From Capitulum mitella (Eukaryota > Arthropoda > Thecostraca > Pollicipedomorpha > Pollicipedidae), in assembly GCA_030062745.1 (NCBI GenBank), contig CP099839.1:6929115-6993114 (forward strand): a stretch of 64,000 bases of DNA, read 5' to 3'. Of this stretch, positions 3,678 through 61,060 are shown in pieces (within the stretch, counting starts at the first letter, position 1; each line of letters opens with the position of its first letter). The notes under the pieces were generated by a model. It had not been told where the DNA came from. It searched no databases and worked only from the letters and a program-made list of their open reading frames with translations. The position numbers and the translations under genes were made by a program.

Positions 3678-4053
3678 CTGTCAGTGCGGCGATCCACGGG
3701 TAGTGCGACGCGTCCAGCGCCTGGCGGGCGGCCTGGCCCAGCGCCGAGCTGCCCAGCTCGGCGGCGGCCAGCTGCTGCTGGTACATCTGGGCGGCCAGCG
3801 CGGCGGCGGCCGCCGCCATGCCGGACGAGCCGGCGCCCAGGCCGAACGGGTACGTGGTGAGCGCGCCGGTGAACGGAGACTTTTCGGCGGCCGGCGCGGC
3901 AAATGAGGTGGAAAGCGGCGTGGCCATGGCGGCGAGTGTGGCGGTGTGCGGAAGCAGCGCGGCCGCGGCGATTGTGGCGGACGCCGCGGCGGCCGGCGGC
4001 GAGCGGCGCTCGCGCGCGCCCGGCGCCGTCCAGTCCGTACCGCGCCCACTCAT
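3678..4053 (-). CDS. abd-A: Candidate abdominal-A Hox gene, first coding exon (hexapeptide exon), partial gene
   Basis: Hox transcription factor N-terminal exon, read on the minus strand from the ATG at 4053 to a consensus donor (CAG|GTGAGC, last exon base 3678; phase 1). It gives 125 codons. Seen: a start context of GGAAAAATGAG; an in-frame stop 99 nt upstream (4152-4150) that argues against a longer ORF; two Ala-rich blocks; a run MYQQQLAAAE; and a final SHYPWIAALTG directly before the donor. A YPWM-type hexapeptide followed at once by an intron is the classic Hox layout. In arthropod abd-A this junction reads YPWMTLTG before the homeodomain exon, so the LTG ending fits abd-A better than Ubx (YPWMAIAG). 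The position on the abd-A side of mir-iab-4, on the opposite strand to iab-4, supports this. Odd points: I replaces M in the hexapeptide, and the usual MSSKF/MLPKY-type N-terminus is absent. The homeodomain exon is not in the window, so another homeobox gene remains possible. Confidence 0.62.
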
Positions 4054-4330: not shown

Positions 4331-6235
4331 CACCTCACCGTCTTGGGACGCCAAGTCGGATTGCCCTTGTAAAACACTAAATTCCGACCTTGAGCAAATA
4401 TGACCACTTAACCACAATTTTTTTCTTCACCCCATCGAGCCTGTGCGGTTTGTCGGAGGATCCTAGCTAGTGTTCTCTCGTGGCCGCCCAGGTTCAGTGT
4501 CTTTCTCACGGACTCCGATCGGAAACCGCACGAGGCGACGCTTTGGTAGGTTCTTCCTCCAATTAGTTCCTAGCACGGAACGCTGAGGTTGATAATTTAT
4601 GCCGCTTCCTGTTGTGGCACGCCATACGTACGTTTATCCTGTCTGCGGCTTTCGTGGCGTGTATTGTTGACCCGTAAGGGCTATCTTGTTCCCCACGCCC
4701 CAAATGGTTTCCATTTCGACATCATCTACTCGTAAACATGTTTGCTCTGTCATTGCCTCATGCATGGAAGTGTTTTGAAGTAAATGGGTGCAAACGTCAT
4801 AGGTACGTTTCATGCGATGCCCTTAGTGGAATGTATTCGAAAGCATGCTGCTCTAAATCGGCATTATATATTCATACCGAAAGACCGCCACGGAACTGGT
4901 ACACTTGAATTCAGTACAAAATGCCTTTCGCGCGAAAGCGAAAATTGCACTGAATACTGGTAAACTATTCCTTAAATCGCAAGCAAGGAAAACAAATGGG
5001 AAGCCGTAAATGATCTAGTACTACCTGACCGCTGACGATGCTGAAATCACAAGGAAAAGATACTTTAATCCCACGCAACCCATTTGGGGCTCATGCCACC
5101 GTAAGTTATTCTTTTTTTCAGACGCGCGGGTTTTATTCGCATGAAAACGTTCTAAAAAGTGCACATGACCTCAGATCCCAGAAGCTCCTTGCGTCACTGC
5201 AATTTGGTCGGCTTGATTCCGCCTTTAGCAAGCCATCATCACTTGGACGTTGGAGTTCAAAACTGAAAATGGTAACCAAGGTAAACGAAAAGTCCAAGAG
5301 TTGAATATGTAGTCAATAGATCATAAATAGTCATATCCTGGGCACAAGACGCCAGATTTTAGACCAAGACGTCAATGAAATATGCTGTGTTTGCAAAATG
5401 CAAATTATGGGATCACCCGCCAGTAAGTTCTGGATCCGCATCTCAACCCAGGCTGGAAGTGATGCGATACCATCACACCTGGTCTGCTCACCTGGTACGA
5501 ATCAAACATTCACAACTGACCTTCGCTTTGGCTGGATGCCTGATTCATACTCTCGTTAACTGCCGAGCCAGACTGCGTGCAACAACCTCGATTATTTGCA
5601 ACACAAGATATCTGGTAAATGCATCTTTTCGGTGTTGCTTGTACCCTACGACGGGGAATTTCGTGGAGATTTGAACGTTTGTCTAAAAGCACCATTACAT
5701 TCGTCTGTTTATGATCTGAATCAATGTTAATACCTGTGATATGTTGTCACGGGCGCCGCCATGGATTTCTGAGTTCATGCGGTGCACACCGCAGGATTCA
5801 GACCTAACTTATCCCCGAACCCAGATTTCTTCTGGAAATTCGACGACGACGACGTTGTAACACCATTTAAGAGGAAATGATTAAAGAGATGTATTTTGTT
5901 TTACTCACTGAATGGAAAGAGGGATTGCGGGTACGAAATATTCTTTGTTCCACACGTTTCAAAGAATGGCCAGTGCATGCACCCCTTGTCACCCCGCGGC
6001 GGGGTCCGTGGTTATCGTACGCTCATATGTTTAAATTCACTTCTCGCGAGAAAATAGCGTTTGCCGTGTATGACCGTTACAGCGCGTTACCAGGTCTCAT
6101 AAGCGTACAATTCGGGAAAGTGGTAGATCCCCAAAGCAAGCGCAATGCACTGTTTCCATTCACACTTCCTAATAAGACATAACTTGAACTTTGGCATATC
6201 CTAAGCACTCACTATCGTTACGCTTCTGTACACCT
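4331..6235. other. Upstream flank of abd-A candidate, no gene seen
   Basis: Mixed-composition DNA with only short chance frames. I saw no repeat structure, microRNA hairpin or conserved protein motif. Confidence 0.5.
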
Positions 6236-11600: not shown

Positions 11601-11714
11601 TGATTACAATGTATTTATTGTGCTTATGCATGTTACAATGTACTGATTACAATGTAATTATTGTGCTTATGCATGTTACAATGTACTGATTACAATGCAA
11701 TTATTGTGCTTATT
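11601..11714. repeat. 43-bp tandem repeat, 2.6 units, with Sox- and POU-like words
   Basis: Units begin at 11601, 11644 and 11687. The first two are nearly identical over 43 bp and the third is cut after 28 bp. Each unit contains ATTACAATG (Sox-like ACAATG) and ATTGTGCTTATGCATG, an ATTGT Sox-type core next to a TTATGCAT octamer-like POU site. AT-rich and non-coding. Confidence 0.8.
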
Positions 11715-15660: not shown

Positions 15661-16142
15661 CACGTAACCTAACTGAACATAGATACAGACCCGAACGGAA
15701 CAAGGGCACGCACGCAGACAGCGGAGCAGGGGTACAGCACGAATCCGAGCCTTGCATGAGTCGAGCTTGAAAATCCGTTGACCCTCATCTAGTGCAGACA
15801 CAAGGCCAGCCAGGATCCTATCGGAGCCGAGCAGGCCACGGAAGTAAAACGGAACTGAAGACGGTTATATGTTCGATTCCAGAACATGTGGGAATCAGAC
15901 AAGTCGTCGGCGTAGAGTTGAGTCAAGAGCAAATACGGACCTGGATAGGCCACATGTAAGGAAACATACAAAGCATGAGTAACATCAGATACAAAGCATG
16001 AGTCGGACAAGACACGGACACGCTCTTGGATTAAGAAAGGACACAAAGCTTAACAAGGCAAAATCCAAGAACGTAAAGAGCACGGAAGCATATCAAAGCG
16101 AGACAGAGATATAGTACTGAGCCCACCAGAAATACAGCGGGG

Positions 16143-16473
16143 TCCAGCAGGGACATGTCGCCGGGACCAGCAGAGACACAGCCGAGCCCAGCAGAGACAC
16201 ACAGCCGGGCTCAGCAGAGACACACAGCCGGGCCCAGCTGGGATACACAGCCGGGCCCAGGAGAGAAACATAGCCGAGAACAGCAGAGACACACAGCCGA
16301 GCTCAGCTGGGATACACAGCTGGACCCAGGAGAGACACAGCCGAGCCCAGGAGAGACACACGGCCGAGAACAGCAGAGACACACAGCCGAGCCCAGCAGA
16401 GACACACAGGCGGGCTCAGCAGAGGCACAAGAACGAGCACAGCAGAGACACACAGCCGAGTCCAGCAGACACC
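16143..16473. repeat. 23-bp minisatellite, about 14 units
   Basis: Tandem units of mostly 23 bp around CCCAGCAGAGACACACAGCC, with two 21-bp variants. Variant units (GCTGGGA, GGAGAG and AACAGCAGAG types) recur in the same order, suggesting higher-order duplication. A period of 23 is not a multiple of three, so the open frames crossing it on both strands are incidental. Confidence 0.92.
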
Positions 16474-52779: not shown

Positions 52780-52846
52780 CCCTGTACATATACCGAATGT
52801 ATCCTGGGCACCAAAATCCGGTATACCTTCAGTATACGTAACAGGG
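52780..52846 (+). ncRNA. mir-iab-4: mir-iab-4 microRNA precursor
   Basis: Hox-cluster microRNA known from arthropods, where it lies between abd-A and Abd-B and targets Hox mRNAs. The 3' arm (52819-52842) matches Drosophila miR-iab-4-3p at all 24 positions (it begins CGGTATACCTTCAG and ends ACGTAAC). The 5' arm (52786-52807) matches miR-iab-4-5p except for G to A at position 3, T to C at position 9 and the final base. The outer stem CCCTGT/ACAGGG (52780-52785 and 52841-52846) closes the hairpin around an AT-rich loop. The position-3 change lies in the 5p seed (positions 2-8) and would alter its targets; the 3p sequence is unchanged. The arm order places iab-4 on the plus strand, opposite to the abd-A exon, as in Drosophila. 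Confidence 0.95.
52780..52846 (-). ncRNA. mir-iab-8: mir-iab-8 (antisense of mir-iab-4) precursor
   Basis: The complement of the iab-4 hairpin also folds. Its 5' arm (52841 down to 52817) is identical to Drosophila miR-iab-8-5p, beginning TTACGTATACTGAAGG. In Drosophila this strand is transcribed in the same direction as the Hox genes and the miRNA represses abd-A and Ubx. The two stem substitutions seen here become G-U wobbles on this strand, so pairing is kept. Whether the strand is transcribed cannot be seen from DNA. Confidence 0.75.
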
Positions 52847-57276: not shown

Positions 57277-58689
57277 TTTTCTGGAATGCATCCAAGCGTT
57301 CTGAGATGGTTAGCTGGAATAATGAGATAGGATTGAAACTTGGCTAGGTAAGACTGAAACCTACGACGACCCGTTCACGGAGAGGTGGTGCCATATGGGG
57401 CGGACGACCCATACATCGCAATATTGTATTGCACCTTTGGCTACTACGTTGAAAAACTAATTTGAACTATCCATGTCTATCTTCGTCTTTGACCGCGATG
57501 TCTACCTTGCTTTAAGTGAAACCGAGGCTACTTAAGCTAAAGATATGAGGTACAATAAAGGAAAAATAAAAATTAGACTACCTCTATATGTATAGAATGT
57601 AGTGACACAACTCTTGAACCTGCGTTTTACCGGATATGGTCGTGCTCAACTTCGTTACTCAATAGAACGAAAAAATATCTTCTATTCAAATATTTATTGT
57701 GCCTTGCACATAAACTAATGGTAAACGCTCATCACTTTGCCGGTAACAAAACATCCCACTAATTTTGACCAAAGACACACTGTGGCCCATATAAATCTTC
57801 TTAGTTACCTTATTTTTTAAAGGCAGTGATGTAAGAAAGCTTCTTATGGTTAGATTCGGTTCTTGGTGTGACAATGCTAGTTTTCGAAAACAGTTATACG
57901 CCCCATGAACACAGAGGCTGGTGTAATCGAAAGTCTGAACGTGATTTTAACAGCTCTGCGCTTCTGTGGCGAGTTTAATTTACACCAACCACCACGCGAT
58001 TCCTGCGCGTCCGAGCTGATCGAAAATGACCTAACGTGACCAGAAACATCAAAAGGACAGCGAAGCGTGAGGCCAAACAACTAAGTTGTGGTGATGCATG
58101 CAGTGCTACCCTTTAAGAATAGAAACAATTAAAAGCGCGGTATAAGTGCAGAATAATTTGCCAATACCATGTAGCGATAATGCTAGAATCAACGCTGGAA
58201 GTGTCCTAATATGGTTTTTTTATGGACCCGACCATGAGTGGCTTAAATGGTGATAGTGATCCGGATGCCAGGTGATAAAGGTCATTGCTACAAAGTACGA
58301 ACAATCAAATGGATGAATGATCATGAGGCTTACTAGTGATGGGGCTGGCTATGAATGGACTATGAATGGCATTCCCGTGTGAAGTATAAGAAAGTTCTAA
58401 GTTAACTGATGGTCTCCTTCTCGCGTCAATACTGAATGACTTTCGCAGTGCAGTAGCAACGGTCTCTCTTATGCTTATGGCAAGAAATATTTCTGAAAGA
58501 TATTAACTTTGGTAGATTTCGTTGGCAGGCAGCATATGTTACCTCGCATGGGTCCACTTACGAAATGTGAAATTTTATTTATCAACAAAATGTTACTGTA
58601 TTTGCTGCGCCATGCCAGCATAGGCTATCACGCATAGGTGTACTTACGGAAAGTGAGCATCTTGGTTATTTATTAACAAACTATAACTG
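57277..58689. other. AT-rich spacer, no gene seen
   Basis: A short diverged duplication around 58540 and 58615 (CTCGCATGGGTCCACTTACG / CACGCATAGGTGTACTTACG, each followed by AAA-GTGA). No gene. Confidence 0.45.
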
Positions 58690-60637: not shown

Positions 60638-61060
60638 AAGCCAAGGTCAACCAGCTTGTGATCTGACCCAGATTTGCTTTGCACCATGTTGGTTGGTACG
60701 GAATATGCATTCAAAGACCCTTGTAAAAACACGCGTGCGCACATTGCTACTCTTACATATACCAGGGTCAGTGCAGGTCAAGATCATTAAAGATCAAGAT
60801 CAACTATCTTATGATCTTTTTCAGATTTGCTTCGGAGCATGTCGATTTGTATAGAATATGCATTCAAAGACCCCAATAAAAACACGTAAGCCTACATTGA
60901 TACGCTTACATATATCTGGGTCATTGCAGGTCAAGGTCATTGAAGTCCAAATTAACTACTTTGTGACCTGGTCCAGAATTGCTTTGCAACATGCCGATTT
61001 GTACGAAATATGCTTTCAAAGACCGTAATAAAAACACGTTTGGGACATTGCCACGCATAC
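60638..61060. repeat. 152-bp tandem repeat, three units, GGTCA-rich
   Basis: Aligned landmarks are CAGATTTGCTTTGCACCATG (about 60670), CAGATTTGCTTCGGAGCATG (about 60822) and CAGAATTGCTTTGCAACATG (about 60973), each followed by GAATATGCATTCAAAGACC or close variants and by AAAAACACG. Period 151-153 bp. The units contain AGGTCAAGGTCA-type words (60928-60939). The array ends in the TA microsatellite. Confidence 0.85.

Follow-up and report, generated by a model that had tools for sequence, protein, structure and literature searches.

The window analysed here, i.e., the whole stretch of 64,000 nucleotides of Capitulum mitella DNA (C1:6929115-6993114 of a 477-Mb genome in 16 contigs), lies within a Hox cluster in which nine Hox genes were found on one strand by a scan with the homeobox profile PF00046 (150 of 196 candidates scored). 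The gene names were assigned from homeodomain sequence and are in part tentative; the identities given below for abd-A were computed. A Hox3 homeobox was not listed between pb and Dfd (C1:6258515-6402028), in the same scan of 150 of the 196 candidates. Antp and Ubx each have a second copy on another contig, at C10:28055373 and C10:28093573, respectively, in agreement with the duplicate Antp and Ubx published for Capitulum mitella and Pollicipes (PMC11331182, available text). An earlier note, made from the letters of the window alone, had placed it in the abd-A to Abd-B interval on account of a mir-iab-4/iab-8 hairpin, and had named the lack of any flanking Hox gene as one of the observations that would speak against this placement. 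The interval is borne out, as the window is flanked by the abd-A homeobox exon at a distance of 34.6 kb on the left and by the Abd-B homeobox at 44.5 kb on the right, inside the 100 kb in which the note had proposed to look for Abd-B. The left end of the window falls within abd-A, of which it holds exon 1 and a portion of intron 1. The stretch had also been described as almost devoid of genes with many GC-rich islands; the islands are there (11 between 3151 and 53570, with thresholds set in this analysis) but the coding exon 1 of abd-A at 3678-4053 had gone unmentioned. The abd-A exons and the two strands of the hairpin are located as follows, in positions of the window unless preceded by C1.

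3678-4053, minus strand: abd-A exon 1, with the end ...DASHYPWIAALT and a phase-1 donor g/gtgagc
C1:6894474-6894308, minus strand: abd-A exon 2, left of the window
C1:6892596-6892354, minus strand: abd-A exon 3, left of the window
52780-52846, minus strand: mir-iab-8 hairpin, oriented like the Hox genes (RF00725 65.8 bits; -30.4 kcal/mol over 67 nt)
52817-52841, minus strand: putative miR-iab-8-5p, seed UACGUAU kept, ends predicted by homology
52784-52805, minus strand: putative miR-iab-8-3p, two stem differences from the Rfam consensus, ends predicted by homology
52780-52846, plus strand: mir-iab-4 hairpin, weakened (RF00725 33.7 bits; -25.3 kcal/mol)
52786-52807, plus strand: putative miR-iab-4-5p, seed CGUAUAC changed to CAUAUAC, ends predicted by homology
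52819-52842, plus strand: putative miR-iab-4-3p, identical over 24 nt

The CpG ratio of the whole window is 1.08, i.e., the window overall is not CpG-depleted. The first of the GC-rich islands surrounds abd-A exon 1 and the last surrounds the hairpin. A Pfam scan of 10 of the 128 window frames of at least 100 amino acids gave nothing above the curated cut-off. On the minus strand a tRNA-Gly (acc) of 90 nt was predicted at 57689-57778; it was found with bacterial settings and may be spurious. Tandem arrays were observed at 11601-11713 (43-base unit), 16121-16469 (23/46-base unit), and 60647-61039 (153-base unit).

The three exons of abd-A join in phase with GT-AG borders to give an open frame of 261 amino acids, and the gene looks complete, reading as a full frame. 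Three database proteins, one of them named as from the barnacle Amphibalanus amphitrite, align with 73-97% of exon 1 at 77-88% identity. The homeobox is split by an intron of 1711 bases between Q50 and N51 (C1:6894308 to C1:6892596). When the two parts are joined the homeodomain is complete (74.3 bits, 57/57 positions); the PF00046 genome scan gave only its positions 1-49. It matches each of four proteins, three annotated as abd-A and one Daphnia protein with PF12407, at 55 of 60 positions, compared with 53 of 60 for Ubx and 51 of 60 for Antp of the same genome. The gene thus has an Antp-class homeodomain closest to abd-A and is located between Ubx and Abd-B, as required of an abd-A orthologue. 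The Abdominal-A motif PF12407 is found over 13 of 24 positions, with 15.9 bits against a curated cut-off of 25. The hexapeptide is YPWI, not YPWM, and the three database relatives of exon 1 all have YPWI as well; a YPW motif occurs in 46 of 171 fetched proteins with GCPRRRGRQTY and reads YPWM in every one of them (46/46), the other 125 being without one. Barnacle-named relatives of exons 2 and 3 were absent from the best 120 of 3205 and the best 120 of 2188 matches, respectively, and neither HLLNLTERQ nor REINDKA of these exons occurred in any of 190 fetched database proteins.

The position of the intron may matter for the history of the gene in the literature. The standard reverse primer for homeobox PCR is placed on WFQNRR, and this is the site that the abd-A intron interrupts. 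An intron at Q50/N51 would therefore hide abd-A from homeobox PCR priming on WFQNRR, and in a homeobox scan the gene would seem truncated. No abd-A was recovered when three cirripedes were surveyed by PCR (PMC4862073), and abd-A was reported as absent from four barnacles, the incomplete segment seen in C. mitella being read as non-functional (PMC11331182), both according to the available parts of these papers. The split homeobox may account for the negative PCR surveys as well as for the "incomplete" abd-A in published scans. A split homeobox is not described in the main text of PMC9582164, where no word begins with "intron", nor at 12 of the 16 places where this word occurs in PMC4862073, nor at any such place in the available text of PMC8062507 and PMC10299150. 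The abd-A-like protein of Amphibalanus amphitrite, XP_043214087.1, is encoded between Ubx and Abd-B, as here, and has an Abdominal-A motif cut to about half, again as here (13/24), and no remnants were reported at the place of abd-A in Sacculina (PMC9582164, in the passages available).

The hairpin at 52780-52846 is matched from end to end by the Rfam model RF00725 (71/71 model positions) on both strands, with 65.8 bits (E 3.4e-14) on the minus strand and 33.7 bits (E 5.4e-5) on the plus strand. As both scores fall short of the gathering score of the family (73 bits), a default Rfam scan of the 64-kb window listed nothing. On the plus strand, 52819-52842 reads CGGTATACCTTCAGTATACGTAAC and matches at 24/24 nt the iab-4-3p given for Bombyx and, under the name dpu-miR-iab-4-3p, for crayfish, whereas the 5' arm at 52786-52807 reads ACATATACCGAATGTATCCTGG and departs at positions 3, 9, and 22 from ACGTATACTGAATGTATCCTGA, the published iab-4-5p. 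The hairpin, the identity of its 3' arm and the three differences in its 5' arm were therefore all described correctly in the earlier note. The minus strand reads TTACGTATACTGAAGGTATACCGGA at 52817-52841, and the first 23 nt of this are the published Bombyx miR-iab-4as-5p. By arithmetic, a given 24-nt word is expected by chance about 5e-10 times in 64 kb, both strands included. Folding of both strands had been proposed as a check, and with flanks (107 nt) both do fold, the minus strand at -43.3 kcal/mol (z -3.15; equalled by 1 of 200 shuffles) and the plus strand at -36.1 kcal/mol (z -2.01; 8 of 200). Judged by seed (positions 2-8), the minus strand belongs to the miR-iab-8-5p family (UACGUAU), and the plus strand, with CAUAUAC in place of CGUAUAC, falls outside the miR-iab-4-5p family. 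No convincing second mir-iab-4/iab-8 copy was found in the 477-Mb genome by a model search in which 65 of 27273 first-look candidates were scored. The third match in the genome, with 23 bits and E 4.6 at C2:23309648, appears to be a chance match.

The two strands have not fared equally. Relative to the consensus, two pairs of the stem have changed, each to G-U when the minus strand folds and to A-C when the plus strand does. Restoring both bases to the Rfam consensus improves the plus hairpin from -25.3 to -35.8 kcal/mol (a cost of 10.5), compared with a change from -30.4 to -32.9 kcal/mol for the minus hairpin (a cost of 2.5). One of the two changes also hits the iab-4-5p seed, the ancestral form of which is kept in Parhyale (mapped to Daphnia), crayfish, and Bombyx, according to sequences given in the available text of the sources; the barnacle iab-4-5p string was not found in the papers searched in full text. 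On the other side, iab-4-3p is unchanged, as is the iab-8-5p arm (23/23 nt relative to Bombyx). As both of two stem changes would favor iab-8 by chance in 1 of 4 cases, and one barnacle hairpin was compared, this asymmetry is weak evidence. Nevertheless, the sequence pattern suggests that it may be mainly the iab-8 side of the microRNA that still controls Hox genes, and iab-4-5p is likely to have left its ancestral targets.

Candidate target sites were counted as sense and antisense 8-mers in the first 3000 nt after the stop codon of 11 Hox genes, i.e., in 3' UTRs of assumed extent. The iab-8-5p 8-mer ATACGTAA, the exact complement of iab-8-5p positions 1-8, is found in sense orientation five times in Antp, three times in abd-A, twice in Antp2, and once in Dfd, and not at all in lab, pb, Scr, ftz, Ubx, Ubx2, and Abd-B within these 3000 nt. 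The single copy in Dfd, about 2356 nt after the stop, is possibly there by chance. Relative to second-order Markov simulations the Poisson P is 4e-9 for Antp, 7e-6 for abd-A, and 1.5e-4 for Antp2; after multiplication by 66 (six mature forms, 11 genes) the values for Antp and abd-A stay small and that for Antp2 becomes about 0.01. The background is 0.16 sites per 10 kb and strand, measured with the hairpin included in the window and three neighboring or control stretches. ATACGTAA is the commonest 8-mer downstream of Antp, and it is the only 8-mer present at least twice in each of Antp, abd-A, and Antp2, three genes chosen for this comparison after their sites had been seen. All six iab-8-5p 7-mer sites of Antp are located within 1.3 kb of the stop, upstream of the first AATAAA/ATTAAA (2084). 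The abd-A sites are located 1948-2096 nt after the stop, around AATAAA signals, and the third of these, downstream of an AATAAA, may lie outside the mRNA. The site region is partly kept between the Antp copies: one Antp site falls in an island identical in Antp2 (16/16 nt, E 0.002), which is the second best of seven short islands found in the same order in both genes. No comparable island holding a site was found between Ubx and Ubx2. If the duplication is older than 247 million years, as stated in the available text of PMC11331182, the site shared by Antp and Antp2 would be old. Within 5 kb of its stop Ubx has no iab-8-5p 7-mer; one is found at 5764. The Hox cofactors hth and exd were considered as possible targets and were not located among the 8 of 16 matches read, which we take to be Iroquois (5), PKNOX-like (1), and Six (2).

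As a whole, these observations are probably best explained by iab-8-5p acting as a repressor of Hox genes, with an iab-4-5p that has decayed and probably no longer has those targets. In Drosophila iab-8 is transcribed from the Abd-B side towards abd-A, and the minus strand of the barnacle locus is probably transcribed in the same direction. The miR-iab-8-5p released from the 5' arm of the minus hairpin would bind the clustered ATACGTAA in the putative 3' UTRs of abd-A, Antp, and Antp2, and would lower the level of the three proteins in the most posterior cells; repression of these three genes is the most likely function of iab-8-5p. The plus-strand iab-4-5p, with a changed seed and a weakened hairpin, would probably no longer share the targets of iab-8-5p. 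It is tempting to go further and speculate that the two-way iab-4/iab-8 locus of barnacles is now functionally one-way, iab-4-5p having decayed and iab-8-5p repressing both genome-duplication copies of Antp along with an abd-A that was never lost and was overlooked because of its split homeobox; this fuller proposal is plausible, and we put it forward tentatively.

Repression by iab-8-5p has precedent in Drosophila, where it is produced in abdominal segments 8-9 and reduces Ubx, and where there is support for abd-A as a target and predictions for Antp (PMC3290615, available text). Drosophila iab-4 and iab-8 share target sites (PMC7523956, available text). The barnacle locus has the same geometry, but site sharing is lost on the iab-4-5p side, the iab-4-5p seed is changed, the plus hairpin is weakened, Ubx lacks a 7-mer within 5 kb, and both Antp duplicates carry sites. 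Several observations count against repression of Hox genes by iab-8-5p in the form proposed here. Ubx and Ubx2 are without sites within 3 kb of the stop although Ubx is the best supported target of Drosophila iab-8-5p. Antisense 7-mers are present too, one in Antp and one in Scr, and the third abd-A site may lie outside the mRNA. In Drosophila, ANTP protein changed little when the hairpin was deleted (PMC3290615, in the part available).

It is also possible, if somewhat doubtful, that the locus is an ordinary two-way mir-iab-4/8 with both strands expressed and working, and that iab-4-5p has only gained new targets through its changed seed, which would overlap with the preferred explanation for iab-8-5p and differ from it on iab-4. 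The plus strand retains a hairpin fold of -25.3 kcal/mol and aligns with the Rfam model over its full length, and an unchanged iab-4-3p is in agreement with both strands working. However, sites for the iab-4 products do not cluster: within 5 kb of the stop of nine Hox genes the barnacle iab-4-5p seed has a single site in lab and none in the other eight, and iab-4-3p has a single site, in Antp. The ancestral iab-4-5p 7-mer occurs once in Antp, where it overlaps an iab-8 site, and once in ftz, and is absent from the other seven genes. No mature product other than iab-8-5p has more than one site per gene in this set. It is unlikely that the ATACGTAA clusters are sites for a DNA- or RNA-binding protein and not for a microRNA. 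The 8-mer is near-palindromic, most copies are preceded by an extra A, and a bZIP motif close to TTACGTAA is one example of a candidate. For a site in double-stranded DNA, on the other hand, copies on both strands would be expected, and the 8-mers number 11 sense and 0 antisense in the 3000 nt after the stop of the 11 genes (12 and 2 for the 7-mers, the antisense ones being in Antp and Scr); moreover, ATACGTAA exactly complements positions 1-8 of a microRNA whose locus is in the same cluster. That the hairpin is a relic, persisting by chance or as part of an enhancer next to an abd-A that is non-functional as published for Capitulum mitella, is very unlikely, for although it agrees with the available statements of an absent or incomplete barnacle abd-A, with YPWI in place of YPWM and with the shortened Abdominal-A motif, it does not sit well with an iab-8-5p arm unchanged over 23/23 nt relative to Bombyx, clustered sense-only 8-mers in three genes, an abd-A open over 261 amino acids with matching splice phases, and the conservation of exon 1, which three database proteins share at 77-88% identity.

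The presence of mir-iab-4/8 in barnacles was already known, from four genomes (PMC11331182, available text). The locus, the animal group and the duplicate Antp and Ubx are the same there as here; in the available part of that study presence alone is given, with abd-A absent or incomplete, whereas the present analysis adds a complete abd-A frame, the asymmetry between strands and the target sites. A split but open abd-A, one-sided decay, and clusters of iab-8 sites were not found in the literature covered, a search outside which most subscription papers on cirripede Hox genes fall. The barnacle abdomen is a long-standing example of reduction, for which loss of abd-A is the explanation on offer, and in mites and sea spiders two papers, as far as available, regard the disappearance of iab-4 as going along with that of abd-A. 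The combination of an abd-A that looks intact, a kept iab-8 arm and dense iab-8 sites at abd-A and both Antp copies would instead point to post-transcriptional silencing as one possible route to the reduced abdomen and, if true, the barnacle locus would exemplify a two-way microRNA of which one direction has been lost.
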